From assembly GCA_016286575.1 (NCBI GenBank), contig JAEETB010000002.1, positions 1 through 64,000 of the forward strand: 64,000 nt of DNA, in the 5' to 3' direction. The stretch's first letter is position 1, and each line of letters begins with the position of its first letter. The notes under the pieces were generated by a model that searched no databases, was not told the DNA's origin, and was given only the letters and a program-made list of their open reading frames with translations. The position numbers and the translations under genes were made by a program. Origin of the DNA: Prevotella sp. (GTDB taxonomy: Bacteria > Bacteroidota > Bacteroidia > Bacteroidales > Bacteroidaceae). Below are positions 16,666-36,100 of the stretch, piece after piece.

Positions 16666-17050
16666 CCTCTCAAAATAAAAATCCCCGCCAACCGGCGGGG
16701 ATTTTTAATTATTACTCGTAAACCTTTCCAGAAACAGGTTTCTTATACCAGTCGGTGGAGGTGACAGAACTCTGTCCCCAGTTGTTGAACTCCAGATAGG
16801 CGTCCTTGATGCAGACTTTCTCCAATGGATATTTGAAGTCGTTAGGAATCATGATACCATGAGGATCCTCACCTCTTTTCGACAATTCAATTTTTACATT
16901 GTTTGTTGCATCGTTGATATAAGGTGCTGTATTAGGATCAGCGATGCTGAAATTCTTATCCACAGTCTTAGTCACTGTATATGCTGAATAAGTTGTGCCA
17001 CCCTTTTCGGTGTTAATGAATGTCTTGGTGTCTGTTACTCCGAAGAGACT
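16666..17050. repeat. Direct repeat (about 385 bp), copy B
   Basis: The partner of 15361-15745 at +1305 bp. Here it forms the intact 3' end of LruC copy 2 together with its terminator. Confidence 0.9.
16677..16706. terminator. Terminator hairpin of LruC copy 2
   Basis: A perfect 13-bp stem, AAAAATCCCCGCC and GGCGGGGATTTTT, with loop AACC, immediately after the stop codon on the minus strand. Confidence 0.9.
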
Positions 17051-18762: not shown

Positions 18763-20484
18763 ATGTCTGAAATAACCGTTAATATGCTGGTGCGTAAAGG
18801 CTTCTTGATTGTTTGTCTGGTACTTGTGTCGCTGGTTGGCGATGCTCAGATTTCCTTACCCGACTCCATGCTGACCATCACGAAATCCTATGCCTGTCAC
18901 ATCACCAGTCCCGATACTGCTCAGACCATTTTGAGGACCATTCGTGAGCGTCAGACGGAACCTGCCTGGCGGATTGATTTTGCTGAGGGAGACCTGAACT
19001 ATAACATGCGCCGTTATATGAAAGCCCTTTCCTATTTCGAGCGTGTCAAGGCTGAACCCTCCCTTAAAGACAGTACTCATCTACAGTTGCTTCTCTATAA
19101 GCGGCTGATGGACTGCTATGACGTCCTCAACCTTGAAGACGACCTGATCAGAACCATTTACAACCTCCGTAAGATGGCGCGAGCCCAGGGCGACAAGGCC
19201 TTCGAGTCGATGACCGTCTTTATGAGTGGTAAACAGCATCATTTACGCGGTCAACTCGACAGGGGCTATGCCTCCTGTCTGGAAGGTCTTGAGCTCATGC
19301 GTGAGACGGAATATGTCAACAAGCATATCGAACTGCGCAACTATTATGGGGTATTATTAAAGATGTACACGCGCGATGGTCGTTTCGAAGAGGCCATCCA
19401 CATGTCCCGATATCAAGAAGCTGAGGCTCTCTATCCGTCGCCAGCCATCATGCGCAAAGCCCGTGAACGTGGTCTGCGCCAGGTATATGCCCTCCGTGCC
19501 AGCATGTATGCCCAAGCCGGCGATATGACCGAGGCCAACAAAGCCTATGCAGCCTGGAAGAAGACCACCTGCGGCAATGCCATCGACGATATGGACATTT
19601 TCGACTATCTGCAGCTCAGCCACCATAACGACGAAGCCCTGAGTACCATCGTCCATTACCGTGAATTCCTGCGCGAACAGGGTGATACCATCTCTTATCG
19701 CATGCTCTTTGCCCTTAACCGTGAGGCCTTGCTCCGTGTGGATATGGGTGACTATGAACAGGCAATAGCCTGTGGTCGTCAGGTAGCAGTCATCGCCCAC
19801 AAACTCCATATCATCAAGTCGGGCGAGCAGATGCAGACCACCTACAATCTGTTGTTGGAGCAGCAGGCCTCCGAGTCTAAGACGAAGTGGCTGATGTTGT
19901 CGGGCATTGCCATCGCCATCGTGGCTATGGTGGTGCTCATCATCCTCTATTATGCCCGCAACGAACGCCGTCATGTCCGTGATATGCGCAAATTGGCCCA
20001 TGTCCTCGAAGCCTATCGTCGGGCCGTGATCAATGGCGAACCATCCACGTCGCCCGAAGTCGTGGCAGCCATCGAAGAGCTCCGTTCCATCCAGATTCCC
20101 GAGAGCCAGCCGTCAGAAGGGGAGGAGGAACCCGACGACGAAGACCATCGCTTGTTTGTGGAGATGGACACACGGGTCACGCGCGACCGTCTGTTCCTCA
20201 AACCAGGTTTAGGACGTGAAGACCTCATGCGTCTGATTGGTGTCGACAAGAACCGTTTCGGTAAGATGATGAGCAAGTATTCGGATGCCTCCAATACCTC
20301 TGTCTATATCAACCAGAAACGAGTGGAGTATGGTGCCAAATTGTTGTTGGAACATCCCGAGTACACCATCTCAACGGTGGCCACTGAGTGCGGTATGAGC
20401 AATACGGTCACCTTTAACCGTACATTCAAAGAGATGTACAACATGACGCCCTCAGACTATCGTGAAAAAATGACCTCCATTTAG
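18763..20484 (+). CDS. Membrane-anchored TPR/AraC-family regulator
   Basis: A 573-residue protein with three parts: an N-terminal hydrophobic segment (GFLIVCLVLVSLVGDAQ), a helical TPR-like region of about 330 residues, and a transmembrane helix (LMLSGIAIAIVAMVVLIILYY, about 375-398). The cytoplasmic tail ends in an AraC-type helix-turn-helix (GREDLMRLIGVDKNRF, then YTISTVATECGMSNTVTFNR and FKEMYNMTPSDYRE). This layout suggests a periplasmic TPR sensor coupled directly to DNA binding, as in other Bacteroidetes regulators. It stands between the LruC genes and the pilus-like locus and is the obvious candidate regulator of one or both; the signal is unknown. A run of eight G follows at its stop codon. 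Confidence 0.85.
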   Translation: MSEITVNMLVRKGFLIVCLVLVSLVGDAQISLPDSMLTITKSYACHITSPDTAQTILRTIRERQTEPAWRIDFAEGDLNYNMRRYMKALSYFERVKAEPSLKDSTHLQLLLYKRLMDCYDVLNLEDDLIRTIYNLRKMARAQGDKAFESMTVFMSGKQHHLRGQLDRGYASCLEGLELMRETEYVNKHIELRNYYGVLLKMYTRDGRFEEAIHMSRYQEAEALYPSPAIMRKARERGLRQVYALRASMYAQAGDMTEANKAYAAWKKTTCGNAIDDMDIFDYLQLSHHNDEALSTIVHYREFLREQGDTISYRMLFALNREALLRVDMGDYEQAIACGRQVAVIAHKLHIIKSGEQMQTTYNLLLEQQASESKTKWLMLSGIAIAIVAMVVLIILYYARNERRHVRDMRKLAHVLEAYRRAVINGEPSTSPEVVAAIEELRSIQIPESQPSEGEEEPDDEDHRLFVEMDTRVTRDRLFLKPGLGREDLMRLIGVDKNRFGKMMSKYSDASNTSVYINQKRVEYGAKLLLEHPEYTISTVATECGMSNTVTFNRTFKEMYNMTPSDYREKMTSI

Positions 20485-20803: not shown

Positions 20804-21403
20804 ATGATCACCGTGAGAAAGTTGAAGTCTATAACCATTGCATGCATCTCGCTATTGGCTTTTGTGTGTGTTGAGAGGGTAAACGCCCAGACGTTTGCCT
20901 TCCGGAACAATCTGCTTTATGATGCAACTTTGACCCCCAATCTTGGTTTCGATGTTCGTTTGGATTCCAAATGGACGGCAGGTGCTGTCGTAGGCCTGAA
21001 TGCCTGGGATATCGACAAGGAAAAGAATAAGAAATGGCGCCATCTGCTCGTTGCCCCCAACGTCCGTCGTTGGTTGGGTGATTCCCTCTTCCATAAGAGT
21101 TACATCGAGGCCAACCTAATCTATAGCCATTACAACGTCGGCAACACAAAGATTCCTTTCGGTCTTTATAAGGGTGCTCAGGATCGTCGTTTGCAAGGCG
21201 ACCTCTTCGCTCTTGGTGGAAAATATGGATATAGTTGGATTTTGGGACGTGCTTGGCGTATCGAGGCTGAGGCTGGTGTTGCTGTGGGCTATGCTTGGTA
21301 TAAGGAGTACGAATGTCCGACCTGTGGTGCCTATTTAGGCGAGGGCAATCGTATTTTTCTCTTGCCTCAGTTGGGAATCAATGTCGTTTTGATAATTAAT
21401 TAG
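20804..21403 (+). CDS. DUF3575-family outer-membrane-type protein
   Basis: A 199-residue protein with a signal peptide (about residues 1-29, ending VNAQ). The mature part has the DUF3575 pattern: FRNNLLYDATLTPNLGFDVRL, then WRHLLVAPNVRRWL, LIYSHYNVGNTKIP, GGKYGYSWILGRAWRIEAEAG and VGYAWYKEY. The alternating strands suggest a small outer-membrane beta-barrel. DUF3575 genes often open fimbrial gene clusters in Bacteroidales, and this one is followed 11 bp later by a pilin-like lipoprotein. Its precise role, whether export, anchoring or assembly, is unknown. Confidence 0.85.
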   Translation: MITVRKLKSITIACISLLAFVCVERVNAQTFAFRNNLLYDATLTPNLGFDVRLDSKWTAGAVVGLNAWDIDKEKNKKWRHLLVAPNVRRWLGDSLFHKSYIEANLIYSHYNVGNTKIPFGLYKGAQDRRLQGDLFALGGKYGYSWILGRAWRIEAEAGVAVGYAWYKEYECPTCGAYLGEGNRIFLLPQLGINVVLIIN

Positions 21404-21414
21404 AAAAAGAGATC

Positions 21415-23574
21415 ATGATGTCAGTACTTAGGAATATACCCCATGTTGTTTTGCTTACGATGTCATTCGCAGGCTATATGGGTATTATTTCCTGCTCATC
21501 GTCTACTGAGCATGTTGACGATGCGAATCCTGGTTATGATCCGGTGTCAGGTGAGGTCCCCATTAAGTTCCATTTCCATGTAGCCACTGGTAATACTTCA
21601 ACCACACGTATGAGTCAGTCAGACGTTCAGGCTACCTCGAGCGATGTTTTCCGTGGCATGGACCAGAGTGTCTTGATGTCATTCAATCTTCCTTCTAATG
21701 GTAAATCTGTTTCGTCTTCCATCGTGGCAGACAAGCTGAATGGTATGGGGCTTATCACCTCAGGTTCTGTTGGTCCTAACTCAGAATCGAAGTCCCGTTT
21801 TGTTGCAGATTTAGCCTTACCGGTCGGAATCAACACTCTGATGTTTTGGGGTAAGGCTATTAAGACTGGTTCGGATAATGCCCAGGGTAAGATGGAGTTT
21901 GGTGTTGCCAAGGACATTAGCAAAAATACCTTCAGACTTTGTAATCGAGTTCCTGATGATGCGTCAGAAACCTATAATAAGACCGTGTTTAGTCACTATG
22001 AATCTTTGATGGTTACTATTTTGAACACGATAGTGCAAACTCAGATATCCAAAGATGGTGTCACCATCAAATGGTCGGACTATGCATCAGTGACCAGCAC
22101 TGGTATTTTACAAGAGAAATCCAGTTCGGCCAACGATAAAGACCCGAGTAATCCTGTGGTAGCCATATGTGGTTTGGGTGAAACTCTATCCAATCTGTTT
22201 GTGACCCTGAATACAGTTTATCAGGATGAGTTCCGTGCAGGTTCAGGTTCAGCGGTACAACAGATGTTGTCAGATCTCTATCCTCATATCAATATTGCTG
22301 CATCAGCATCAGCCAGCAGTCAGGAGGAACAGACTGCCAAGGAAGTGGCAGAGGCTATCCAAGCCAATATGCTCAAAGTGCTCACCACTGATGGGAAAGC
22401 CTTTTTGCCAATCTCTACGATTGTTGATAATTTAGGTCTTTCTTCGATCACTATTCCAGCAGGTAACAATGATTTGACCAAGTTCCCCTCTGTATTTGGT
22501 TTGCCAGAAGGCAGTACCCTTTTACAGTTTGATGTTGCAGAGACTTCCTATTCCTACAGGAGTCAGGTCATCGGTAATGGCATGACCTTTGATATTGATC
22601 ATTACATGTATCCTCCTGAGCTCTGCTATTTCGGGAATAGTCCTATTCGCATTACGGATTCAACCCTGGTTTCTGCCGACTATCCTCAAGGTACGACAGA
22701 TTGGGATGCCGATGCGTCATGGATTTCCAATCATTGGAGTAAGGATTCCCGTGTATTACCTTCAACTCGCAGCGTCGCTATGCAGCATAGTATCAATTAT
22801 GGAACATCTCTTTTGAAGACGACCGTTCGTTATGGTGCGATGGATCTGGAGGACAACAACCATGCCATACAGTTGGCAAGATATGGATCTAATGAGGAAA
22901 ACGCCATCATTGATGCCACCTCATCGCCTTTTACCTTTACAGGACTTTTGATTGGTGGACAGCCTTCAGAAGTGGGTTGGAATTACTTGGCTAAAGGTTC
23001 GGTACCTTCTTTCAATGCCTTGATTTATGATCAGGCGCTGAATACCGGTGGTACCAATCAACAGACCATTCCTGCCTATGATGCTGGGGCCACCACTCAG
23101 GGTAGGTCAGAGCCTGTCTATACACTTGTTTTTGACAATTGGGATATCTCCAAAGCCGGATCCGATCAGAATGATGTCTATATTGCCCTTGAATTTGTGA
23201 ATAACTCTGGGGTTGATTTCTGGGGTCAGGATAACCTGATTCGTAAAGGTTCTACCTTCTATATCATAGGAAAATTGGATCCTGATGTGATCAAAGGCGC
23301 TACTTCTGCCCAGTTAGCAGATAAATCATACGGTATCACCTGGCCCACGAATTATGCCCTGCCGCCGTACGATGCCGATGGCAACACCCTCAAGGAACGT
23401 CGTGTGTTTATTCAAGATTATATGACGGAGGCACACTTCGTGATAGGCCAAACCTCTTTGCAGAAAGCATTTGTGTCTGTGCCTGACCTTCGTTCATCAG
23501 AGAATTCCCTAGGTCTCTCCGTTGATGTGGCATGGACGACTGGTTTAAAATTTAGTATTATATTTGGACAGTAA
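21415..23574 (+). CDS. Large pilin-like lipoprotein, paralogue 1
   Basis: A 719-residue lipoprotein with lipobox MGIISC and acidic residues soon after the cysteine. At about residue 65 it has STTRMSQSDVQ, followed by FRGMDQSVLMSFNLP. The TRM...VQ...FRG...PF layout is shared with the genes at 24880, 26695 and, in part, 28797. The C-terminus is SVDVAWTTGLKF. The family fits Bacteroidetes type V pilins: lipidated precursors cut after an arginine and joined by C-terminal strand exchange. At this length it could be an accessory or tip subunit rather than a stalk pilin; no classical adhesin domain was recognised. Confidence 0.6.
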   Translation: MMSVLRNIPHVVLLTMSFAGYMGIISCSSSTEHVDDANPGYDPVSGEVPIKFHFHVATGNTSTTRMSQSDVQATSSDVFRGMDQSVLMSFNLPSNGKSVSSSIVADKLNGMGLITSGSVGPNSESKSRFVADLALPVGINTLMFWGKAIKTGSDNAQGKMEFGVAKDISKNTFRLCNRVPDDASETYNKTVFSHYESLMVTILNTIVQTQISKDGVTIKWSDYASVTSTGILQEKSSSANDKDPSNPVVAICGLGETLSNLFVTLNTVYQDEFRAGSGSAVQQMLSDLYPHINIAASASASSQEEQTAKEVAEAIQANMLKVLTTDGKAFLPISTIVDNLGLSSITIPAGNNDLTKFPSVFGLPEGSTLLQFDVAETSYSYRSQVIGNGMTFDIDHYMYPPELCYFGNSPIRITDSTLVSADYPQGTTDWDADASWISNHWSKDSRVLPSTRSVAMQHSINYGTSLLKTTVRYGAMDLEDNNHAIQLARYGSNEENAIIDATSSPFTFTGLLIGGQPSEVGWNYLAKGSVPSFNALIYDQALNTGGTNQQTIPAYDAGATTQGRSEPVYTLVFDNWDISKAGSDQNDVYIALEFVNNSGVDFWGQDNLIRKGSTFYIIGKLDPDVIKGATSAQLADKSYGITWPTNYALPPYDADGNTLKERRVFIQDYMTEAHFVIGQTSLQKAFVSVPDLRSSENSLGLSVDVAWTTGLKFSIIFGQ

Positions 23575-23592
23575 AAAAGAGTACAGTTAACA

Positions 23593-24870
23593 ATGAGTTC
23601 ATTGAATCGACATATCAGAAAGTTGTTTTCCCTGCTGATGCCGGTGGCGGTGGTATCGTGTTCAGTGATCGATGAGGACCTGAGCAACTGCGTTGTTGTT
23701 GAGCAGGCGAAGCTGGACTATGAGCTACGCCTGGTGACGAATATGACCACCGAGCTGACGACCCAGCTGACCACGCAGACAGATATCCGGCTGGCCGACG
23801 CCCTGAAGCAGCATCTCGACGATATCTTCACCGACTATGCCCACGACGTGGACTTGTCGTTCTATGATACGCAGGGCGACTCTACTCGTATTCAGCACGA
23901 CGAGCACATCATGAACGCCAACCAGGCCAGCTATACCCTGAACCTGCCCATGCGCCAGTATATGCATCTGGCGACGGCCAACATCATCGACAATGAATCT
24001 GTGACACTGGAGAACGCCCAGTATTGCCATTCGTCGATATTACGTCAGGCCGCCACAGATACCATCGACTCACATACCACGGGCGTCTTCACAGCCCGAC
24101 AGTCGATGGAGGTGTTGGAGGGTATCGATCAGAACTTCGATGTCCATCTCTATATGGCCAACTGCGCAGCCACTTTGGTGATCGACCCTAGAGGGCATGG
24201 ACAGCTCGACAAGATACGTGTTTACAGTACGGGATTCGCCACGGGCTTCAACATCTGCGACAGTGTTTATCACTATGACGTTCGTTCGCCTTATGTCAGG
24301 ACAACCCGTACGGCAACAGACAATCTGGACGAACTGTCTTTCACATCGGTGACTTTCCCGTCGAGGGAATCCAAGGAGTCGGCTACGCGCTCCGTCATCG
24401 AGACAGAGGAGCCTTTTATTGCTCAGCCCGGCGAGGAGGCACTTTGGGAGTTCCACGTCTATGTGACCCAGCCCGATGGCAGCATCACGAAGACCGTGCT
24501 CAGCGTCAAGACGCCTTTGCGTGCGGGTCAGTTTAAGATAATCAAGTGTTGGATAGGAGAGCAAGGTGAGATTAATGTTCCATCGGAAACTCCAGATCCC
24601 GGACCCGGTCCAGATCCTGGTCCTGGCCCCGATCCTGGCCCTGACCCCGGTCCTGGCCCTGACCCCGGTCCTGGCCCCGATCCCGGTCCTGGTCCCGATC
24701 CCGGTCCCGATCCCGGTCCTGGTCCTGATCCCGGTCCTGGTCCCGGTCCTGACCCCAGTCCTGGCCCTGACCCTGAACCCGGTCCTGAACCTGAACCCGG
24801 TCCAGCATCTAGTGAGGTGAGTACCTCTGTTACCCTCGACTGGCAAGAAGGTATTGAGATAGTGACTTAG
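23593..24870 (+). CDS. FimB/Mfa2-like lipoprotein with Pro-Gly-Asp repeat
   Basis: A 425-residue lipoprotein. Its start, VAVVSCSVIDEDLSNCVVV then KLDYELRLVTNM, resembles the opening of FimB/Mfa2 anchors (SC-x-x-I-x-EDLS-x-C). In Porphyromonas, Mfa2 anchors the fimbria and limits its length. It lacks the Thr-Arg processing motif of its neighbours, as expected for an anchor. Residues about 334-405 are a PDPGPGPDPG-type repeat, then SVTLDWQEGIEIVT ends the protein. That C-terminal strand resembles those of the flanking pilin-like proteins, which is odd for an anchor. High GC and strong local repetition mark the linker DNA. Confidence 0.7.
   Translation: MSSLNRHIRKLFSLLMPVAVVSCSVIDEDLSNCVVVEQAKLDYELRLVTNMTTELTTQLTTQTDIRLADALKQHLDDIFTDYAHDVDLSFYDTQGDSTRIQHDEHIMNANQASYTLNLPMRQYMHLATANIIDNESVTLENAQYCHSSILRQAATDTIDSHTTGVFTARQSMEVLEGIDQNFDVHLYMANCAATLVIDPRGHGQLDKIRVYSTGFATGFNICDSVYHYDVRSPYVRTTRTATDNLDELSFTSVTFPSRESKESATRSVIETEEPFIAQPGEEALWEFHVYVTQPDGSITKTVLSVKTPLRAGQFKIIKCWIGEQGEINVPSETPDPGPGPDPGPGPDPGPDPGPGPDPGPGPDPGPGPDPGPDPGPGPDPGPGPGPDPSPGPDPEPGPEPEPGPASSEVSTSVTLDWQEGIEIVT
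24592..24810 (+). repeat. Pro-Gly-Asp coding tandem repeat
   Basis: A degenerate 6/12-nt tandem array built from GGTCCTGGCCCCGATCCC-like units, encoding PDPGPGPDPG-type sequence. It is prone to length change in multiples of 6 bp, so protein length may vary without a frameshift. It ends in Glu-Pro pairs. Confidence 0.9.
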
Positions 24871-24872
24871 AA

Positions 24873-24908
24873 ATGAAAAGTGAATAGTGAAAAAGTGAAT
24901 AGCGAAAA
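24873..24908 (+). repeat. GTGAAAA heptamer repeat across a start codon
   Basis: Units ATGAAAA, GTGAATA, GTGAAAAA (8 nt), GTGAATA and GCGAAAA span the start of the next gene. The ATG at 24873 is out of frame and meets TAG after four codons. Loss of one 7-nt unit would put it in frame with the gene. Confidence 0.8.
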
Positions 24909-26673
24909 GAACCATATATGGCAGATAGGTTGGGTGAGTGTTTTGTTGCTTATCCTTCTGACTGGTTGTTCTCGTGACGACGGTGGCAGTTCTCAGTCGA
25001 TTGTGAAGACCCAGTTTAATTTCTCTTTGCCTTTGAAGAGTACGCAGTCACTGACCCGTATGGGTGGCGATGTGGTTCAGAAGGACGGAACCGATAAGGA
25101 ATTCCGTGGAATAACCGATGTCAAGTTGTTCTGTTACGACTCGGCTCCAACGGAGTCGTCCACTAATCTTGGTAATATTATTGAGGTGAAAACTTCAGGC
25201 AGTAGTGTTGTGACGGATGTGACGACCGATGACCTCTCCATGTGTCAGGAAATCAATATTCCTGTCTCCACCTCCCATTTCGGTTTCTTTGCCCGTGCCA
25301 AAGATGCTCCTACGACACATGAGGAGAAGATGAAGTATGGCATTATCGAGACCGTTGGTCTTGACAAGAGCACCTACGAGGGTAACAGTGGCATTCGATT
25401 CAAGCCCGTTCCGATATGTACTTCCGAGGCACCCTTCGGCGGAAGCACAGCAGGTCAGAACCTGCTCGACTTGCTCAACGACCTGATGAGTACCACCGGT
25501 GCCGAGTTGTCGCCTAATAATAAGTGGTCTACCGTGAACAACATGTACCTGAATGAGGCTTACCAGCGCATGACGGCCTTAAAGGCTTTGTCGTCGGATC
25601 ATGTTCAGATCATGTTAGCAGCCATCAATAGGCTCATCAATCAGGATAGTCCAGACGATCAAGGCGAATTGTTACGCTCCAACATCCTGGCCAAGATCGC
25701 TGCAGCTTGTGTCACTGCTCCACTTCCCACCAGTCCGACCATTACGTTAAAGCCTGAGTATCAGGGATTTCCTGATGATATCCATCTGCCGGCCGGTGCC
25801 GCTCGTATTGAATGGGATGCCACTCAGGAAAAATTCATCGTTCCTGATACCCATAGTTATGGAGCCAATATCCAAGTCGCTTCCATCAACGACTATGTCT
25901 ATCCGATGAACCTGCAGTATCAGGTGTATTCCGACATTGTGGCTTCTGATGATTTGGTTATCCAGACCGAAGAGGGCACCATTCCTGCAGACCAGTATCA
26001 AAACTGGGACGATTTGTTGGAATGGGGTTATAAAGGCGCCTCTAAAGAAGTGACGGAGTCCACTCAGTCAGTGGCTATGGTGAAGCAGGTAGAATATGCT
26101 GTTGGGCGCCTTGCCTTGCAGGCAGGTCTGTCTTCATCGGATATCTACGATGCCAAGAAGAATAAAGTGGACGTTGCTAATGGCTTTACGCTTAAAGGTT
26201 ATCTTGTTGGCGGGCAGCGTGAAGTGGATTATAATTTCCAGCCAGTTGTAGGTAGTAAGGAGTATGCCATCTATGATACAGACCTGAGTGTCGGACTCCA
26301 GACTTTGCAGAAATCAACGTTCACGGAACCCGACTATATCTTAGGTCTTGGAACGGATCGTAATAAAGAAGTTAATTTGGCCTTGGAGCTTGTGAATGAC
26401 TGTGATGATTTTTGGGGTGCAGATGGTTTGATAGCCCACGGTGCCACTTTCTATTTGGTGGTCTGTCTGAAACCCAGTGAAGGCACGAACTACAGTTCGA
26501 GCCTGAATCAGATTTTCAGTCGCGACCATGCCACGCAGGTAAAGTTGACCGTCACGAGCCTGTCCTCGGCAACCTACGGTCTGCCCAACCTCGAGCTTTT
26601 ACGCCCTACTGTGGGTATCAGTGTGGATCTCAGTTGGCAAAAGGGTCTTACGTATGATGAAATCATTTTGTAG
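24880..26673 (+). CDS. Large pilin-like lipoprotein, paralogue 2
   Basis: A 597-residue lipoprotein with lipobox LILLTGC followed by SRDD. No ATG is in frame upstream of the signal; translation must start at GTG 24880 or GTG 24895, both inside a heptamer repeat, so the start is uncertain. LTRMGGDVVQKDG (Arg about 60) precedes EFRGITDVKLFCYDSAP, the motif set shared with paralogues 1 and 3. The C-terminus is VGISVDLSWQKGLTYDEIIL. The mid-region shares DDIHLPAGAARIEWD and YVYPMNLQY with paralogue 3 (NIGLPDGAARVRWD, YVYPAALWY), confirming common ancestry. Expected surface pilus component by family resemblance. Confidence 0.6.
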   Translation: MNSEKVNSEKNHIWQIGWVSVLLLILLTGCSRDDGGSSQSIVKTQFNFSLPLKSTQSLTRMGGDVVQKDGTDKEFRGITDVKLFCYDSAPTESSTNLGNIIEVKTSGSSVVTDVTTDDLSMCQEINIPVSTSHFGFFARAKDAPTTHEEKMKYGIIETVGLDKSTYEGNSGIRFKPVPICTSEAPFGGSTAGQNLLDLLNDLMSTTGAELSPNNKWSTVNNMYLNEAYQRMTALKALSSDHVQIMLAAINRLINQDSPDDQGELLRSNILAKIAAACVTAPLPTSPTITLKPEYQGFPDDIHLPAGAARIEWDATQEKFIVPDTHSYGANIQVASINDYVYPMNLQYQVYSDIVASDDLVIQTEEGTIPADQYQNWDDLLEWGYKGASKEVTESTQSVAMVKQVEYAVGRLALQAGLSSSDIYDAKKNKVDVANGFTLKGYLVGGQREVDYNFQPVVGSKEYAIYDTDLSVGLQTLQKSTFTEPDYILGLGTDRNKEVNLALELVNDCDDFWGADGLIAHGATFYLVVCLKPSEGTNYSSSLNQIFSRDHATQVKLTVTSLSSATYGLPNLELLRPTVGISVDLSWQKGLTYDEIIL

Positions 26674-26694
26674 AATAATTAAATATGTATATAT

Positions 26695-28752
26695 ATGAAT
26701 AAAAGACAATTCTCCGGTCTGGTGTCAAGTTTGGTGCTGATAAGTACCATTAGTCTGTCATCATGTTCTTCCAGTGACGTGGAAGACAACTCCCAAGTGG
26801 TTTACGACCCAGAAGGAAATGCTGGTGTCAAGCCCGAATTTGTTATATCCATCCCCCGTTCGGTGGTGGGTAGCACCCGTATGAGCAATGATGTGACTCA
26901 GAATGAAGGTACTTCGGAGCAGTTCCGCGGATTGGACAATATCCTTATGATTCCTTTCGCAAGTGTTCCTACGACCACCTCCTCCAGTCTCTCTGACATT
27001 ATGGGTCTCAGTAGTATCCAGGCTTTGAATAAGCAGGGTACTCTGAACTACAAGGTCTATGCCGATCAATATGTGCCATTGGGAACGAAGCATTTCCTCT
27101 TCTATGCTAAGGCCATTGACAACGACGCAGACGTAGACATCACCTCGATGTCCGACAAGTTCAAGTATGGTGTGATCCATGCTACGGGTCTGTCGAATGG
27201 CACTTTCACCAATCCTAATGGCGTGAGTTTCAGTCTGGAACAGATCAATACCAATAGTTCAGAGCAAGCAGGTAATACAGTGGGCCGTAATATTATTCAG
27301 TTGATGTCGGGACTGGCCAATACGACCGTTTCGAGCGCTTCGGCTCCCGATAATGCCTGGAGTACAACAACGAATCTCATTCTGGCCCGTCTTTATAGGA
27401 ACTTTATTGGTACGACCGTATCCTCGTCATCTAGTGTAGCTGCTATCTTGGCCATGCTCTACAACGGATTTGAGCGTGTTCCTGTCGGATCACCAGCACG
27501 TCAATTGGCTGATGCCCTCAAGAGTAAGATTAACGATGCTTGCTCGTCTACCCCCATACTCGACTCGACTCAACCAGTAAGTCTGATTAGTGACTATTCT
27601 GGTTATCCTGGCAATATCGGTCTTCCCGACGGTGCAGCTCGTGTTCGTTGGGATGCCACCAACCAGATTTTCGTTGACATAACCGCCAATTATAATCAGA
27701 ATCTGAAGATGCCGATTACCGACTACGTCTACCCAGCCGCTCTTTGGTATTATGTCAGCACGCCCTTGAAAGCTTCCAACACGATTAAATCGACGGAATA
27801 CGATGAGCAGGCCAATTGGAACAGTGTTATTTCCAACGTCTATAAAGGTGCTGCCGATGAAGTGGGGGCCTCTACGCTCTCTGTGGCATTAACAGAGCCA
27901 GTACAGTATGCTGTCGGACGTATTGAGACCAAGATAACCATGGGTACCGGCACCTTCTACGATGGTAATGGTGATGAGGTAGTTATTGGCAATGGCTATA
28001 AGCTGAAAGGTCTGTTGATAGGTGGTCAGAACAGCTGTGGCTTTGATTTCGCCTCAAGAGGCAATGAGAGTCAGACTATCTATGATGTCAACATGGCTTC
28101 ATCCATCACCGCAAAGCCAGGCGTGACTACCTCAGCCAATCAGACCTTGGCCCTTGAGACCAAGAAAGACCAGGTGATCTATGCGGCTCTTGAACTTGTT
28201 AACGGTGGTGAGCAATTCATGGGTTTCGATGGCATTATCCCTGCAGGTGGCACTTTCTATCTGCCCACCGTCCTGAATCCACAGGCAGCCGCCAATTATG
28301 TAAGTGGAACGCGAGATAAGATTGTGATGAAGGATCATGTCACCAAGTTGACCGTTACGATTAAGAATGGTACGAATACCCCACCAGACCGTAATGGTGA
28401 TGGCAATCCTGATAAGTATGTATTAGATCCCAATGATGTACCCATTGGTGTGGATGCCGATGGTGATGGTCAGGTGGATCCATACGATATCGATGGTGAC
28501 GGCTCGCCAGATGCGTTTATCACAGATCCAGAAAAGGGAGGTCCCGGCTGGGATACCGATGGTGACGGTTATGTAGATTTACCTGTCCTGCCAGACCCAA
28601 CTACGGGACTATATCCCACTTATCCGAACACCCCAGGAGGTTTGGGCAATGCCACGAATGGTATTCCCAATTTGGCTAGTCCTGGTATCGAGTTGGGTAC
28701 CTCTGTCAATCTGGATTGGCAAGAGGGTTTGATATTGACACCGAACATTTAA
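26695..28752 (+). CDS. Large pilin-like lipoprotein with calcium-binding-type Asp repeats, paralogue 3
   Basis: A 685-residue lipoprotein with lipobox ISLSSC followed by SSSDVED. VGSTRMSNDVTQ (Arg about 62) and EQFRGLDNILMIPFASVP match the paralogues. Residues about 562-637 contain DRNGDGNPDKYV, DADGDGQVDPYDIDGDGSPD and DTDGDGYVD, the pattern of thrombospondin type 3 or EF-hand-like Ca2+ loops. This segment lies just before the C-terminal strand LGTSVNLDWQEGL, where the Mfa2-like protein has its Pro-Gly linker. A calcium-stiffened stalk is a reasonable inference. Start is ATG, 21 bp after the previous gene. Confidence 0.62.
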   Translation: MNKRQFSGLVSSLVLISTISLSSCSSSDVEDNSQVVYDPEGNAGVKPEFVISIPRSVVGSTRMSNDVTQNEGTSEQFRGLDNILMIPFASVPTTTSSSLSDIMGLSSIQALNKQGTLNYKVYADQYVPLGTKHFLFYAKAIDNDADVDITSMSDKFKYGVIHATGLSNGTFTNPNGVSFSLEQINTNSSEQAGNTVGRNIIQLMSGLANTTVSSASAPDNAWSTTTNLILARLYRNFIGTTVSSSSSVAAILAMLYNGFERVPVGSPARQLADALKSKINDACSSTPILDSTQPVSLISDYSGYPGNIGLPDGAARVRWDATNQIFVDITANYNQNLKMPITDYVYPAALWYYVSTPLKASNTIKSTEYDEQANWNSVISNVYKGAADEVGASTLSVALTEPVQYAVGRIETKITMGTGTFYDGNGDEVVIGNGYKLKGLLIGGQNSCGFDFASRGNESQTIYDVNMASSITAKPGVTTSANQTLALETKKDQVIYAALELVNGGEQFMGFDGIIPAGGTFYLPTVLNPQAAANYVSGTRDKIVMKDHVTKLTVTIKNGTNTPPDRNGDGNPDKYVLDPNDVPIGVDADGDGQVDPYDIDGDGSPDAFITDPEKGGPGWDTDGDGYVDLPVLPDPTTGLYPTYPNTPGGLGNATNGIPNLASPGIELGTSVNLDWQEGLILTPNI

Positions 28753-28796
28753 AGGCAAAAATAAGATAAGGTTTAAATATAATAAGGTAAGCAATA

Positions 28797-30728
28797 GTGA
28801 GAAGATTACTCATCATATGGTGCTGTATGGCTGCGATGCTTATGAGCGGCTGTAAGGAACAGGGAGAGGTGACGGAAGTTGTTCCAAAGCCTGTTCCTGA
28901 GCCTGAACCAGCCTATGTCATTGCTGATATCGCCCTGGCAGTTCCCGACGTCAGTGGCGACGATACAGGTGTATCCACCACCCGTATGTCATCAGAGATT
29001 GTCCAGGAGCATTCTTCTCGTCTTGTGCAGTTGCTGAGTCTTACGCCTTTTACCAAGAAGGGGAAGATAGAGTCTTCTGACCTCTCGACGTTGTATTATG
29101 ATGCCACAGATCTTGGTAATCGGGAGTACGGTGCCAAAACCATCAACGGCAACGCTGCCAAGTTCCTCTATTTCGAGAATTTTGCTTTAATCCCCGGTGT
29201 GGCCTCGTTCTTGACTTATGGAAAGGCTAAACCTGTGGAAAGTGGCCTCTCCGACGATATTGCCAAAAAGTCGTATAACGGCTCTCTGATTATCAGATCA
29301 GACGGTGTCTCCTCCTACAAGTTCCCGGATCTTATCAATCCCGGAAAGTTGTCGTTTGAGTTAGAACCCATCTACGACATCGACAGCAAGCCTGCAACAG
29401 AGAAGATTCCTGTCGAAGCCCAGCAGTTGGCAGATTATCTCACTTCGATCGGTAATACTAAGATAGAATATACTGATAAGGGTGTTCAGCAAACCTTACG
29501 TTGGTCAGAAACCGATGGTATGTTGCTTGGTTTGTTCAACAACTTCATCAATCTGGGTAATGATTATAAGCCAGGATTGATAGCTGGTTCTTCTGCGAAC
29601 GTCATGGCATTTGTTAATGCACTCTATCATGATATTGATCAGTTGCAACCCAATCTGTTGGCCCCTCGATCAACTCTTTGTGCAGAGATCAAGAATACTA
29701 TTCTTGCCGGTGCCGGTTTGTCGAACTTCACCCAAGATGGAACCAAGGTGACGAGTCTTGGCGTGGTCTATCCAGGCAATCTCGGCCTTCCCGATGGTGC
29801 AGCCGTGTACCAGTGGGATTCCGAAAATAAACAGTTTGCAGTGATGACGCAGACCTCCAGTACATCGAACATCACGGGTATTGGCCGATATGCCTATCCT
29901 CCGGAACTGTTCTATTATGGTAATAGTCAGATCCGGACCAGCAATACCGCCGTATCCATCCGTCAGTATAGTTCTGGAAAAACCACTTGGGAAGATATGT
30001 TGAGTCTCTATGTCGATAACGATGAGGTGACTAGAAGCACCAAGTCTCTTGCCATCAAAGATGCTCTACAGTATGGTGTTGCAAGGTTTCAGGCAACAGT
30101 CAATCCCGTGCCCTCTGTCCTGAAGGACTCTAAAGGTAATAATGTGACAGTCACCCCGACCTCTTTCCCCATCACTGGCATCATCATCAGTGGTCAGCAT
30201 CCTGTAGGCTTCGATTTCAAGATTCCTGAGAACTCAGCATCGTCAGATGATCCTACAGGCACAGGTGTTGAGTTGTTCGTCTACGATCATCATATCCAGA
30301 GTGAGGACGGTCAGATATTCCTCTCTTCCAGTACGGAAACGCCAGCGTTCAGTACGTTAGTGCTTCAGAGTCAGGATTACAAGGCAGATGCTCCCGACCA
30401 GTCCGATGTCACTGTGATCCTGGAGTTTGAGAACAACAGTGGTCAGGATTTCTATGGCGAGAACAAGATGGTTGTTTTCCAGGGAACGAAGTTTTATTTG
30501 ATTGGTAAGTTAAAGCTGAATAGTGCCGAGAATGCCGGCAGTGTCGATGATGATACCAAGAAGCGTATTTTCACGCAGGACCATACCACAGAGGTGTCCA
30601 TGACCATCAATACGTTGGCTCAGGCTTACAATGTGATGCCCAATATTCTGTCGGGTCGTATGGAATTGAGTGTAGAGATGAAGCTGAAGTGGGTTGAAGC
30701 CACTCCGACAACAGTGATATTGAAGTGA
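28797..30728 (+). CDS. Large pilin-like lipoprotein, paralogue 4
   Basis: A 643-residue lipoprotein, starting at GTG 28797 and giving MRRLLIIWCCMAAMLMSGC, with a Pro/Glu-rich spacer (KPVPEPEPAY). VSTTRMSSEIVQ (Arg about 63) is conserved, but the FRG motif that follows in the other paralogues is missing, making it the most divergent of the four. NLGLPDGAAVYQWD and YAYPPELFYYG match paralogues 1-3. The C-terminus, ELSVEMKLKWVEATPTTVILK, is a variant of the shared terminal strand. Its stop codon lies in a GTGAAAA heptamer tract that runs into the next gene. Confidence 0.58.
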   Translation: MRRLLIIWCCMAAMLMSGCKEQGEVTEVVPKPVPEPEPAYVIADIALAVPDVSGDDTGVSTTRMSSEIVQEHSSRLVQLLSLTPFTKKGKIESSDLSTLYYDATDLGNREYGAKTINGNAAKFLYFENFALIPGVASFLTYGKAKPVESGLSDDIAKKSYNGSLIIRSDGVSSYKFPDLINPGKLSFELEPIYDIDSKPATEKIPVEAQQLADYLTSIGNTKIEYTDKGVQQTLRWSETDGMLLGLFNNFINLGNDYKPGLIAGSSANVMAFVNALYHDIDQLQPNLLAPRSTLCAEIKNTILAGAGLSNFTQDGTKVTSLGVVYPGNLGLPDGAAVYQWDSENKQFAVMTQTSSTSNITGIGRYAYPPELFYYGNSQIRTSNTAVSIRQYSSGKTTWEDMLSLYVDNDEVTRSTKSLAIKDALQYGVARFQATVNPVPSVLKDSKGNNVTVTPTSFPITGIIISGQHPVGFDFKIPENSASSDDPTGTGVELFVYDHHIQSEDGQIFLSSSTETPAFSTLVLQSQDYKADAPDQSDVTVILEFENNSGQDFYGENKMVVFQGTKFYLIGKLKLNSAENAGSVDDDTKKRIFTQDHTTEVSMTINTLAQAYNVMPNILSGRMELSVEMKLKWVEATPTTVILK

Positions 30729-30766
30729 AAGTTGAAAAGTGAAATATGAATGATGAAGAGTGAAAG
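30725..30766 (+). repeat. GTGAAAA heptamer repeat across a gene junction
   Basis: Six 7-nt units (GTGAAAG, TTGAAAA, GTGAAAT, ATGAATG, ATGAAGA, GTGAAAG) cover the stop of one lipoprotein gene and the start of the next. They resemble the tract at 24873-24908 and supply the ATG codons at 30750 and 30753. Confidence 0.75.
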
Positions 30767-31985
30767 AATGATCATAGGAATGACAGGTAAGATGATACCG
30801 CTGATGGTATTGTCTGTTCTGGCGTTGTTGCTGTGTCTGTCTTGCGGTAGCGGCAGTGATGGCAGTGGCGATGAGCCTGATGTTCCCAAGGAGCAGCCCA
30901 AGCTCCAGATTAACATCTACACTCCTGGTCATCCCGTTGTGACCCGTGCTGATGTGGGTGATGTAGAAGGTGAAAAAGCCGAGATGACCATCCATAAGCT
31001 TCAGATATGGGTTTTCGAACATTCTAATGGCGAGAAGGTAGCCTATCTCGAAGATACTAATCCGATGGCTCAACTACGTGATACGACAGGTGGTGCCTTC
31101 CTTCGTGGTACTTATCAGTTGATTGTCAGCAACAAGTTTGCTGAGGATCGACCTGCTGTCGATGTCTTTGTTCTGGCGAACGGCAATCAGACGGGTCTTC
31201 AGACGTTTGGTGAAAACACCACGCGTAATGTTCTTCAAGGTGCCTTGATGGAAGAGGGCTGCTATGGTTTGACAACGTTCCAGACGTCTGTCTCCGAAAC
31301 GCAGGGTCTCCCCCTGTCTGGCAGGCTGAATGCCGCCGAGCTGGGTGGTGTAGCCCCAGTGCTTTATGTTAAGAATACCGTCACGGTTGTTCGTTCGGTG
31401 TCGAAGATCAGGTTCATTTTCAGTCGTAACAAACCCGATGCAGAAGATGAAGGGAAGGATGATCTTCATATCACCAAGATCGATCTTGATGCAGATATGC
31501 TCCCCAATTCGGCATATTTATTCCTGTCCGGACAATATACGCCTAGAGTATATCACTTACCTGACGGTATAGCCTATAATAGCTTAAAGACCTTGGCAGA
31601 GCCCGTCAGTATGACGATCAATCAGTGTGCCACCCCGGCAAAATATGCCTTTGTCTCATCCCTGACAGGTCAGGAATATGAGAATCTGATTAACAGTGGC
31701 ATTACTCAGAACGAATTGACCCAGGTCGGACGATTCTATTTCCGTGAGTCGGATCGTCAAATGAGAGGTACGATATATTACAGAATAGAGGACAAGACCA
31801 CTAATCATGTGGATGATAGGAAAGCGACCTTCAAGATGAATTCTGCAGGTGATTTCTCCCGCAACCATACTTGGATTGTCTATGGCTATTTCGCTGGTAG
31901 TGATAACCTTCAGATTACCTCCGTGAAGATCACTCCCTGGGAAGAGGTGCCCGGTGACAATAGCCACGAAGTGTACAATTGGTAA
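30750..31985 (+). CDS. FimA/Mfa1-like fimbrillin lipoprotein
   Basis: A 411-residue lipoprotein with lipobox LLLCLSC and acidic, Ser/Gly-rich residues after it. HPVVTRADVGDVEGE (Arg about 66) is followed by IHKLQIWVFEHSNGEKVAYLE, the usual opening of Bacteroidetes FimA-type pilins after arginine-specific cleavage. SVSKIRFIFSRN and FLSGQYTPRVYHLP fit the family's two beta-sandwich domains. The C-terminus is VKITPWEEV. Of the locus it most resembles a typical pilin in length, so it could be a structural subunit. Start is ATG 30750 within a heptamer tract; ATG 30768 is an alternative. Confidence 0.68.
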   Translation: MMKSERMIIGMTGKMIPLMVLSVLALLLCLSCGSGSDGSGDEPDVPKEQPKLQINIYTPGHPVVTRADVGDVEGEKAEMTIHKLQIWVFEHSNGEKVAYLEDTNPMAQLRDTTGGAFLRGTYQLIVSNKFAEDRPAVDVFVLANGNQTGLQTFGENTTRNVLQGALMEEGCYGLTTFQTSVSETQGLPLSGRLNAAELGGVAPVLYVKNTVTVVRSVSKIRFIFSRNKPDAEDEGKDDLHITKIDLDADMLPNSAYLFLSGQYTPRVYHLPDGIAYNSLKTLAEPVSMTINQCATPAKYAFVSSLTGQEYENLINSGITQNELTQVGRFYFRESDRQMRGTIYYRIEDKTTNHVDDRKATFKMNSAGDFSRNHTWIVYGYFAGSDNLQITSVKITPWEEVPGDNSHEVYNW

Positions 31986-31999
31986 AAGATAAAAGAGAT

Positions 32000-33130
32000 A
32001 TGACGAAGAAAAGATATATAGAGACCCTGTTGTTTTCGGCACTAAACGCCTTTGCGTTATTGGTTGTCGGATGCTCTGACACCGATGATAGTGGGATGCC
32101 TCCAGTCATCGAGTCAGAAGGTGAACCCTTACAGGTTTCTCGTTTCACTCGTTATGGTGCTGGTGATGGGACAAATGAGACCAACTACGACAATCTGACG
32201 ATGTGGCTTTTCGCCATACCTACTAATAATCCCGCAGAGAAAGTCCAATCAGGTATTGTGAGCTTCAATGGTATCTCTGAAGACGATAATCTTCTCACAT
32301 GGAACTCTGCCATCTATGTGAAGAACTCAACGACATACGAGATGTTCGGTTTCATACCATCGTATATTGCTGGCACAGACTCTGGCATCTCCGAGAATGG
32401 CGCTAGTTCGGCAAAACTGACCCTGAAGGGGTTGCAATCGCTCTCAGATGACGATGTTTGTATTATCACAGGTGTCGTTAACGGTGCTCCTGAAAACCTG
32501 ACACCCACAGATAAGCTCTATCGGGGCGTATATGAATATCAACCTTTATACGGTAGTACTCGTTATGGTGTACGCCTGCTGGCGGATCATATCTATGCCT
32601 CGTTGAAATTTGGCATCTATATCGATGGTGATTATGATGACCGTAGGACAATCAAGTTGAAGAAGATGGAAGTGATGAGTAACCAGAAGGCTCAGGTCAA
32701 TGCGGTAATAATCTTGAACAAGGGGGCAGGTACAGAGGTAGGGGTACCTTTCACCTCATTTACCACCACATCTGTAGAATCTTCCGACAAAGCGTCACAG
32801 GTCATTTTCGAGGATACTGAAGGTCATGAGATCATGACCACAGCTGCAGTAGCTTCTATGACAGACAAACAAAAAGCTGCATATAATATGATCTCTCCGA
32901 TCTATTTCGGAGACTGGCTCAAGAACGACCTTTATCTGGTGAGCACCTACGACGTATATGATAAGAAAGGTAACCTGACGCGCGAGAACTGTACGGTAAC
33001 CAATAAGTTGCCGAGTTCAAAGACCAATATAGATATTGGCGAACAGGATTCCATAACGTTGACGGTCAATCCGTCTTACCTCTACGTGCTTTCTGATCCA
33101 GATCAGGATCCCAAGGTGGTAATTAAATGA
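32000..33130 (+). CDS. Fimbrillin-family lipoprotein
   Basis: A 376-residue lipoprotein. I use the ATG at 32000 (MTKKRYIETLLFSAL); the track start at 31979 is a TTG overlapping the previous gene. The lipobox is LLVVGC followed by SDTDDSG. VSRFTRYGAGD (Arg about 51) lies before NYDNLTMWLFAIP, a fimbrillin-like opening. The rest is beta-rich with VRLLADHIYASLKFGIYID near the centre and SITLTVNPSYLYVLSDP near the end. Its stop lies 10 bp before the ATG of the 3868-residue giant protein, linking pilin-like genes and giant proteins in one run. Confidence 0.62.
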   Translation: MTKKRYIETLLFSALNAFALLVVGCSDTDDSGMPPVIESEGEPLQVSRFTRYGAGDGTNETNYDNLTMWLFAIPTNNPAEKVQSGIVSFNGISEDDNLLTWNSAIYVKNSTTYEMFGFIPSYIAGTDSGISENGASSAKLTLKGLQSLSDDDVCIITGVVNGAPENLTPTDKLYRGVYEYQPLYGSTRYGVRLLADHIYASLKFGIYIDGDYDDRRTIKLKKMEVMSNQKAQVNAVIILNKGAGTEVGVPFTSFTTTSVESSDKASQVIFEDTEGHEIMTTAAVASMTDKQKAAYNMISPIYFGDWLKNDLYLVSTYDVYDKKGNLTRENCTVTNKLPSSKTNIDIGEQDSITLTVNPSYLYVLSDPDQDPKVVIK

Positions 33131-33140
33131 TGAAAGAGTT

Positions 33141-36100
33141 ATGAAGTTGAGATATATCATAATAAGCTATCTGATGCTCTTGGTTGCTACGGCAGTCAAG
33201 GCACAGATTACTATTGGTGGTAATGTCTATGGTGGCGGCAATGAGGGTGATGTCGGTGGTAATACTAAAGTCACGGTTCGAGCTGGCGACGTCCATCAAG
33301 TGTTCGGTGGTGCCCGTATGGCTGATGTGAAAGGCAATGCTTTTGTCAATATCGACGGCGAGCATGCCTCTGCCTATATTATTATTAATAAGGTATATGG
33401 CGGTAATGATATATCTGGAGAGATTGGTGATCCCAAGCAAGCTCAAAACCCTGTCAAAAAATTGCCTGTTGAGTTGGACATGGTAGCTACAAACAATATA
33501 ACCAAAGATTGGGATGCATTTGTAAAAATCTCTACCAAAACCGAAAAAGTTGAAGGCAAGGTTCAGGAGACTAGCAATGCCCAAAAGATCTATATCGGTC
33601 AGCTCTTTGGTGGTGGCAACGGTGATTACGACTATACCTCAAGTGGCACTTATAATGGTCTAAAAGCGCCTGATTTGCGTAAGACTTATCTCGAACTTTT
33701 GGGAGGCTCTATCGTCAATGTCTTCGGTGGCGGAAACGTGGCTACGGTGACAGAAGATGTCGTTATTCATTTGGATAATCCAAGCAAGGTGGTGAACCAT
33801 ATCAAAGTGAAAGACGGCAAAGAGGATGATGTCAATGGTACTGACCTGCTGACTGAAGATCGTTTCATAAAGATGGGTATTAACTACAAGTTCACCTATC
33901 CAAACAGCGCTTCCTTCCAGTTTGGAAACCTCTTTGGTGGCAATAACAAAGTAGATATGGCCATTCAGCCTAAGTGGAATTTGTTGGGCGGTATGGTGAG
34001 AAATCTCTACAGCGGTGGTAATGAGGGACGTATGACCTGTCCACAAGGTCTGTTGCTGCAAATTCCAGAAGAGTCTACTCTTATAGTTGACAATGTCTAT
34101 GGCGGATGCCGAAAGGCTGATGTGCGTCCGTTGGATGCTGCAGGCAAAGATGTGCCTAACGCGCAGATCCAGTTGGAGCCGAATCCAACAGGTATTCCTG
34201 CAGGCTTTTCAGCTCATACGAGAATTCTAGGCGGTAATATCAACAATGTCTATGGTGGTAACGATATCTCCGGCAATGTCTATGGTGGTAACACTGTGGC
34301 TATCCTGACTACGATTCATGGCAATGTGTATGGTGGCGGCAATGGCTCGTATGCCTATACCGACAACCCGGCATTGAAGGACGAACTCCTCTGGCGCGAC
34401 TTCTATTATAATCCTAAAGAGATATTGGGTTTAAGCGGTGATACTTTCACTGGCTTGCAGTCGGCAGAGGCCCTCAATAAGGTGCGCCCCAATGCTGAAC
34501 AGGTGTCCCTCCTTCTCCGAGGCACGGCAGATAAACCTGTTTTCGTCGAGGGCTCGGTCTTTGTGGGTGGTAACAGTGCATCACTGCAAAACCTGACAGA
34601 CATAGCCAATCGTCAGGCCCATGTGAAGATTGGATCGTATGTCACCATCGATAATCTGTTCCTTGGCAACAATGGTGAGAATATGGTAAAGACCGATGAG
34701 GAAGTACGTAACGAGGATGGTCTGGTTCAGTCAGAAGGTGTACTGCGGACTATAGCCAATACGACGATAGCAGGTTCTAAGTTCAACTCGATGGATTTGA
34801 CACAATCCGATGTCTTTGACAAGTACATGGAGGGTTGTGCCATGAAGGTGATGCCCAGCGTGGTATTCGACGATGTCGAGAATTACACACCATATTCCAG
34901 CCAATTCGGTTCCTTATACTGTGGCGGTAATGTGGGTAGTATGATGACTGATGGACTGACTGAAATTTCCTTTGTAGACAAGGCCATAATTTACGATAAG
35001 ATTGTGGGCGGCTGTAACAAGGCCAATGTTGATGCTGGAGAGTTCAATGCCGCCTATGAGGGTGGTCTTATCGGTGAGCCAGACAGCCACGGCGATAAGT
35101 TGAAGCTCAACTTCTCGGGTCTGAAGATCCAGCCCATGCGATGGAAAGATCCTAATGACAAGTCCAAGTTATTGGAGTGGAATACCGTAGTCTACAATGC
35201 CACAACGCAACAATTTGACAATGTAGAGAATGTTAAGCCTACTGAGCCAGGCCAAAATATAACAAGTACTGATGCCGATATTGTCCGTCGTCTGAAAGGC
35301 GGTAACCTCTACGGTGGTTGCTACGAGTCTGGTCATGTGAATGGTAATGTCATTCTCAACATCAACGAGACGCTGATGGAGCGTGATAAGCTCTTTGACC
35401 TCACAGATGAAGGAGATACCCTGTATGTGAATACTGAAAAGGGAAAATATACCATTACGAAGCGCAATACGGGTGTCATCCTCTCCGAACAGGGTATGGA
35501 CGTGCTTGGTGATGCACTTAATGTGTTCGGTGCTGGTTATGGTGCCGCCTCAGAGATATGGGGTAGTACCACCATTAATCTGAATAAGGGTTACGTGTTC
35601 CAGATCTTCGGTGGTGGTGAGATGGGTGCCGTCGGTAAGAAAGACGCAGACGGGAAGTATGGTAAAAAGAGGGCAGATGGAACTTATGGCCCAGATGAGA
35701 AGTACAGTACCTATATCAACCTGAAAGGTAGCGTTGCAGGTGTGTCGAGAGCTACTTCTTCCATTAACTCTGACATGGCAGAGTGTGAGTTTATCTATGG
35801 TGGTGCCTTCGAAGGTGTGATAGCAGGCGACATCCATATCAACCTCGGTAATGGCCGTATCTTTAACTCCTTTGCAGGTAGCTGTAATGCCGATGTCCTT
35901 GGTCATACAGAGACTTACATAGGTCGCAATGGTGTGGATGCAAATGGCAATGATATTGCAGGTTTCCCATGGATCCGTGACCACCTCTATGGCGGAAACG
36001 ACCTGGGAGGCCGAATTTTAGGAGATGCAAAATTCTCTTCCCGTATCCGTGACGATGTGAAGGGTATGGTAGCTGGCGACTATGGTGTTTCATCTTATAT

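Follow-up and report, generated by a model that had tools for sequence, protein, structure and literature searches.

Seven consecutive genes on the forward strand of the window (the whole 64,000-nucleotide stretch of DNA that was analysed) encode lipoproteins, and six of these carry an arginine shortly after the lipid cysteine. The locus raises the question of whether these six proteins are processed and polymerised as type V pilins while the seventh stays behind as the anchor, as the original prediction held. All computational tests supported this arrangement of six processed subunits and one anchor, and we infer cleavage and polymerisation from the sequence and model comparisons described below. 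The cluster very probably encodes a single type V pilus with six Arg-cut subunits and an uncut anchor, the order of which would be set by their tails.

The cluster starts with a DUF3575 outer-membrane-type protein (20804-21403, + strand; Pfam PF12099, E 1.5e-44), followed on the same strand by subunit A, the anchor, subunits B, C, D, E and F, and a secreted protein of 3868 residues. A lipobox cysteine is present in all seven lipoproteins of the cluster and in most of their relatives (SPII lipoproteins). The nearest named relatives belong to rumen Prevotellaceae, to other Bacteroidales metagenome genomes, and to the cultured Prevotella communis E15-14 and Prevotella sp. tc2-28; the operon is carried by one cultured host whose genome is complete, P. 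communis E15-14. When 398 genomes of the genus were searched with the profile of the family formed by A, B, C and D (A-D), 131 matched at E <= 0.001, in some cases only weakly. Just upstream of the cluster, 18763-20484 encodes a protein with a TPR-like part and an AraC-type HTH, which may regulate the pilus operon. A DUF4114/DUF4842 lipoprotein encoded on the reverse strand at 16712-18610 has no Thr-Arg shortly after its cysteine.

Subunit folds and the arginine site

Subunit A (719 aa, 21415-23574) is a lipoprotein and candidate stalk protein with the tail SLGLSVDVAWTTGLKF. Because the A-D, anchor and F profiles gave no secure sequence match in the PDB, A and the anchor were compared by fold; a Pfam search with 53 A-D proteins yielded no match except one at chance level. 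A Foldseek search using the AlphaFold model of A (pLDDT 86) returned type V pilins as all of its top 14 matches, and VIA-align gave Z scores of up to 14.1 against such pilins. The alignment with FimA proposed in the original prediction bore out this relationship: the model aligned with the FimA prepilin (PDB ID 4q98) from model residue 44 with a Z score of 12.8, and with polymerised FimA (6kmf, Z 10.0) only from residue 66, one past R65. Judged by its model, A is a divergent type V pilin.

The arginine had been placed just before the first conserved beta segment. In the model of A, it instead comes after a strand (residues 47-56), within a loop at residues 59-67 with pLDDT below 50, and before the next long strand (82-90). 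Because these two strands flank the loop, the modelled Arg is between the first and second strands, as in the processed Porphyromonas subunits, and this position suits the pilin mechanism better than one before the first strand. Published work shows the same pattern in P. gingivalis, where the cuts fall at R49 in Mfa1, R43 in Mfa3 and R54 in Mfa4, and Mfa2 lacks such a site (PMC5789003). The predicted cut in A, after R65 (STTR/M, codon at 21607-21609), could release the N-terminal strand 47-56, as had been anticipated, and the loop is not an ordered and buried one; exposure of the Arg was judged by pLDDT and secondary structure, and A is the one subunit in which the position of the loop was modelled.

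The anchor (425 aa, 23593-24870) scored 20.5 bits against Pfam Mfa2, just under the cut-off of 21.2, and the same profile matched 10 of 46 anchor orthologues at E up to 0.01 (best 5e-8). Its model matched Mfa2 (5nfi) with a Z score of 15.6 and the putative Bacteroides anchor 3gf8 with 16.9, and also matched the putative Bacteroides anchors 3pay and 4qdg; these three Bacteroides proteins have been named as the closest relatives of Mfa2 (PMC5789003). By profile and by fold, the anchor belongs to the Mfa2/FimB anchor family. In the model, strand 41-48 leads into a short helix (51-58), and no long flexible loop separates the two. Between the pilin domain and the tail lies a Gly-Pro-Asp-rich linker (24589-24804), which has low confidence and no secondary structure in the model and would let a donor strand reach far from the membrane. 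This GPDPGPGP linker of about 70 residues is absent from six other aligned anchors.

A site of this kind might serve shedding, with clostripain freeing soluble adhesins from their lipid and no polymerisation taking place. Many surface lipoproteins of B. fragilis are indeed released by clostripain (PMC12632263). However, the site here comes after a complete first strand of the pilin fold and coincides with the start of polymerised FimA, and the cluster encodes a non-cut Mfa2-like anchor. Shedding is thus very unlikely, and processing of pilin subunits is the preferred reading.

Subunits B (597 aa, 24880-26673), C (685 aa, 26695-28752) and D (643 aa, 28797-30728) belong with A to the A-D family. 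Subunit E (411 aa, 30750-31985) is FimA/Mfa1/Mfa3-like as far as sequence comparison tells. It matched NCBIfam fim_Mfa1_fam (E 6.7e-8), its profile matched Mfa3 (5nf4) in the PDB with an E value of 8e-4, and Pfam P_gingi_FimA was detected in 21 of 30 orthologues; a phmmer search of the PDB with E alone returned chance matches only. Subunit F (376 aa from the ATG at 32000, 32000-33130, in a reading frame open from a TTG at 31979) was matched weakly and by sequence only, through Pfam Mfa_like_1 in 5 of 37 orthologues.

The predicted site positions R65, R60, R62, R63, R66 and R51 were confirmed in all six subunits, and the measured distance of 26-44 residues from the lipid cysteine agrees with the predicted 25-45 or so. 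The sites read STTRM in A (R65, Cys27, +38), SLTRM in B (R60 at 25057-25059, Cys30, +30), GSTRM in C (R62 at 26878-26880, Cys24, +38), STTRM in D (R63 at 28983-28985, Cys19, +44), VVTRA in E (R66 at 30945-30947, Cys32, +34) and RFTRY in F (R58 from the TTG start, which is R51 from the ATG, at 32150-32152; Cys25, +26). The acidic residues reported after the cysteine were found as a trend, their fraction at Cys+3 to Cys+6 reaching 0.70 in A-D and 0.85 in anchors.

Between Cys+20 and Cys+60, Thr-Arg occurred in 192 of 284 A-D proteins (27 expected from composition, about 7-fold), 51 of 64 E proteins (7.5 expected, about 7-fold), 44 of 72 F proteins (8.4 expected, 5-fold) and 0 of 103 anchors (13.5 expected); because the rows are related sequences, these figures are counts and not probabilities. 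The window anchor has no Thr-Arg before residue 98, in agreement with the claim that the Mfa2-like protein lacks the site. An aligned Arg was present in 157 of 163 A-D proteins, and the other six show VTR, NTR or THR one gap off when inspected by eye. The Arg was found in all 38 E proteins and in nearly all F proteins, being lost in those of loci L095, L135 and L194. These three F genes read ..FALPAPTGF or ..TAVPAPTGF, and the other subunits of their operons retain the Arg.

The predicted conservation of Thr-Arg held for one residue of the pair: Arg is nearly invariant, and Thr is merely preferred. In 127 non-redundant related gene groups, the nearly invariant Arg has variable surroundings, and the P2 residue at 157 A-D sites was T in 126, M in 16, S in 9, H in 3, V in 2 and R in 1. 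The lipid Cys and the Arg are the sole invariant columns in the first ~155 residues of 18 A-D proteins that are 23-59% identical to C; after the start Met, only Cys, Arg and one Gly are fully invariant in 11 E and F proteins. A Thr-Arg motif as the conserved unit was rejected, conservation being restricted to the basic residue.

Protease candidates and the Arg/Lys switch

In P. gingivalis, the cutting is performed by RgpA/B (PMC5954841), and a surface clostripain cuts Bacteroides pilins according to a 2025 review (PMC12632263). The sole C25 protein found in the genome that contains the window, which is 87% complete, was the sortase PorU (950 bits). Because this was the only C25 protein found, a gingipain is not needed, and it was rejected as the protease, no RgpA/B having been found in that genome. 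A C25 search of 19 other, mostly F-less, genomes with such operons gave no match in 17. Genomes G422-G438, mostly F-less, have no C25 match including PorU, and G439 has PorU and lacks F; the missing C25/PorU in G422-G438 is in line with a missing T9SS giant tip module. A C11 clostripain gene was present in the window's own genome and in 54 of 54 other genomes tested, as judged by gene presence only. The C11 clostripain is most likely a better candidate for the protease than a gingipain.

Pilins with a Lys site have been described in P. distasonis and B. ovatus (PMC5789003). In one set of F-less operons, TR is replaced by TK in A, D and E together (PATKM, PATKT and IATKA in L138). Operons L139, L158 and L183 have Arg in all subunits, and L152 and L175 are mixed. 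An automatic site caller, which misread some rows, classed 20 operons as all-Lys, 72 as all-Arg and 19 as mixed, compared with 59 mixed ones obtained by shuffling (minimum 45). A paired independent-contrast test of the switch had too few phylogenetically independent pairs for significance, so shared ancestry may explain part of the concert. Because Arg and Lys change together across the subunits of an operon, the concerted change points to one common protease. Covariation of the P2 residue inside operons (0 of 5000 by plain shuffling, without correction for relatedness) was not relied on.

Conservation alone would also be expected if the Thr-Arg were purely structural, for example part of a salt bridge in the loop, and no protease acted on it. 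However, the very low model confidence of the loop is that of a disordered segment, Arg changes to Lys together across operon subunits despite their differing neighbourhoods, and the site is missing only in anchors. A structural role is therefore extremely improbable, and we favour a protease site.

C-terminal tails and the proposed order of subunits

In 74 of 74 F operons, the product of the gene immediately upstream of F has NW as its last two residues, and no other gene in these operons encodes such an end; among F-less groups, the NW tail was found in 1 of 53. In the window, this gene is E, whose tail (31911-31982) ends in TPWEEVPGDNSHEVYNW and is the proposed donor strand for F. Across the operons, the NW gene before F was E in 63, an A-D protein in 10 and a fused anchor/A-D frame in 1, and the operons with a non-E NW gene (the 10 A-D and the 1 fused) have no E. 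The ten NW tails of A-D proteins scored on average 30-53 when compared with E tails and -1 to 11 when compared with D tails. None of the E-family proteins of F-less operons, which have 489-718 residues and an extra C-terminal domain, end in NW. In the A-D tree, the NW rows form one clade of ten plus L072, and A-D proteins may have acquired the NW tail once or twice (AU p 0.051). In L083, the anchor and the next A-D subunit form a single open frame of 1017 aa that ends in YNW.

The tail of the anchor, EVSTSVTLDWQEGIEIVT (24814-24867), is likewise a proposed donor strand and forms a strand at residues 409-415 of the model. It resembles the tail of subunit C. Among operons with C, 19 of 20 have an anchor tail of the TSV type, compared with 8 of 83 without C, and anchor tails scored 59 against the C tail, whereas shuffled tails scored 17. 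The anchor tail thus points to C as the stalk where C exists. In C, an Asp-rich DxDGDG insert is followed by the tail GIELGTSVNLDWQEGLILTPNI; the DxDGDG repeats (28390-28640, shortly before the tail) have a calcium-binding look and also occur in the L023 orthologue. L023 further carries, between A and the anchor, an inserted gene (L023:6856-8475) that looks AAA-ATPase-like by sequence (YVDKTDLVYEL). An invariant Trp lies near the C-terminus (W675 of C, W707 of A and W417 of the anchor), and the model of A has a terminal strand at 701-709.

The giant protein after F (3868 aa, 33141-44747) is a GNVYGGGN-rich secreted protein and the proposed tip partner of F. Its putative T9SS type A C-terminal domain matched TIGR04183 with an E value of 7e-4 and 19.5 bits, below the cut-off of 23. 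A GGNVYGGGN-type protein follows F in 65 of 66 operons and in 0 of 28 F-less ones, so that F, the NW tail and the giant T9SS-type protein co-occur. F is better placed distally, by the giant protein, than within a uniform polymer. In P. gingivalis, Mfa5 is delivered by the T9SS (PMC5954841). The simplest reading is that the tails are partner-specific C-terminal donor strands and that F is an adaptor to a T9SS-delivered tip.

Alternatively, the donor in these Arg-cut type V pilins could be the freed N-terminus of the next subunit, with the tails needed for folding only. An N-terminal donor was proposed for Mfa4 and is still open (PMC5789003), and Met or Gln regularly follows the Arg in A-D. However, the NW tail tracks the position next to F and not the protein family, and, in operons that have C, the anchor tails match that of C, neither of which is expected for tails that serve folding only. 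We consider an N-terminal donor unlikely and retain the C-terminal tails as the proposed donor strands.

We infer the following direction and order of assembly. Subunits A, B, C, D, E and F would be exported as surface lipoproteins, each with its groove filled by its own first beta strand just past the lipid Cys. A surface Arg-specific protease, likeliest the C11 clostripain and not a gingipain, would cut after the Arg in the flexible loop, whereupon the lipidated strand would depart and the groove open. Lacking the cut site, the anchor would remain lipidated, retain its own first strand and donate its tail only. The tails would be specific for their acceptors, and therefore tail-groove pairs would set the order of subunits. 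The stalk (C if present, else A) and the anchor would have a common tail type; F would be distal, adjoining the giant T9SS-type protein; E, or any gene product encoded directly upstream of F, would plug into F by its NW tail, with D next. A tail code of one tail type for one groove, an exchangeable F-plus-NW adaptor and a long-E end without F have, taken jointly, somewhat better than an even chance of being correct. We did not find such a tail rule in the literature, of which our coverage was partial. If the tail-code reading is true, up to six different pilins assemble in a fixed order, F and the NW tail attach a giant protein secreted by the T9SS to the tip of the pilus, and F-less pili end with a long E that has an extra C-terminal domain.

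Comparison with known fimbriae and pili

Among the pili known from gut and rumen Bacteroidota, those of type V are the main kind. What is known of their protease outside Porphyromonas, of their donor strand and of how subunit order is set comes from very few species, and the natural swaps found here (tail, Arg/Lys site and tip module) make all three directly testable. In rumen Prevotella, the cluster also connects type V pili with giant T9SS proteins.

The cluster resembles the P. gingivalis Mfa1 fimbria (mfa1-5) in its gene order, which runs from the stalk through the anchor and the accessory subunits to a last component exported by the T9SS, in the loop Arg that is present in processed subunits and missing in Mfa2, and in a Trp conserved close to the C-terminus of both shaft and anchor (PMC5789003, PMC5954841). 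The proposed T9SS-delivered tip, to which F would be the adaptor, is comparable with the T9SS-delivered Mfa5. Unlike the Mfa1 fimbria, the present cluster has six putatively processed lipoproteins, of which four belong to a divergent family that has no Pfam match, and a giant T9SS-type protein of 3868 aa without a vWA match, and no gingipain Rgp was found. With the P. gingivalis FimA fimbria (FimA stalk, FimB anchor, FimC-E tip), it shares the prepilin fold and the position of the cut (4q98, 6jzj, 6kmf); identity is however 9-10%, and the subunits here are larger and have an inserted helical region. The fold is also that of the Bacteroides type V pilins of known structure (BACOVA_04078, BF1861, BT2657 and BACEGG_00536), for which the 2025 review states processing by a surface clostripain (PMC12632263). 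Bacteroides pili have been described with three kinds of pilin, whereas the present operons have up to seven, with position-specific tails.
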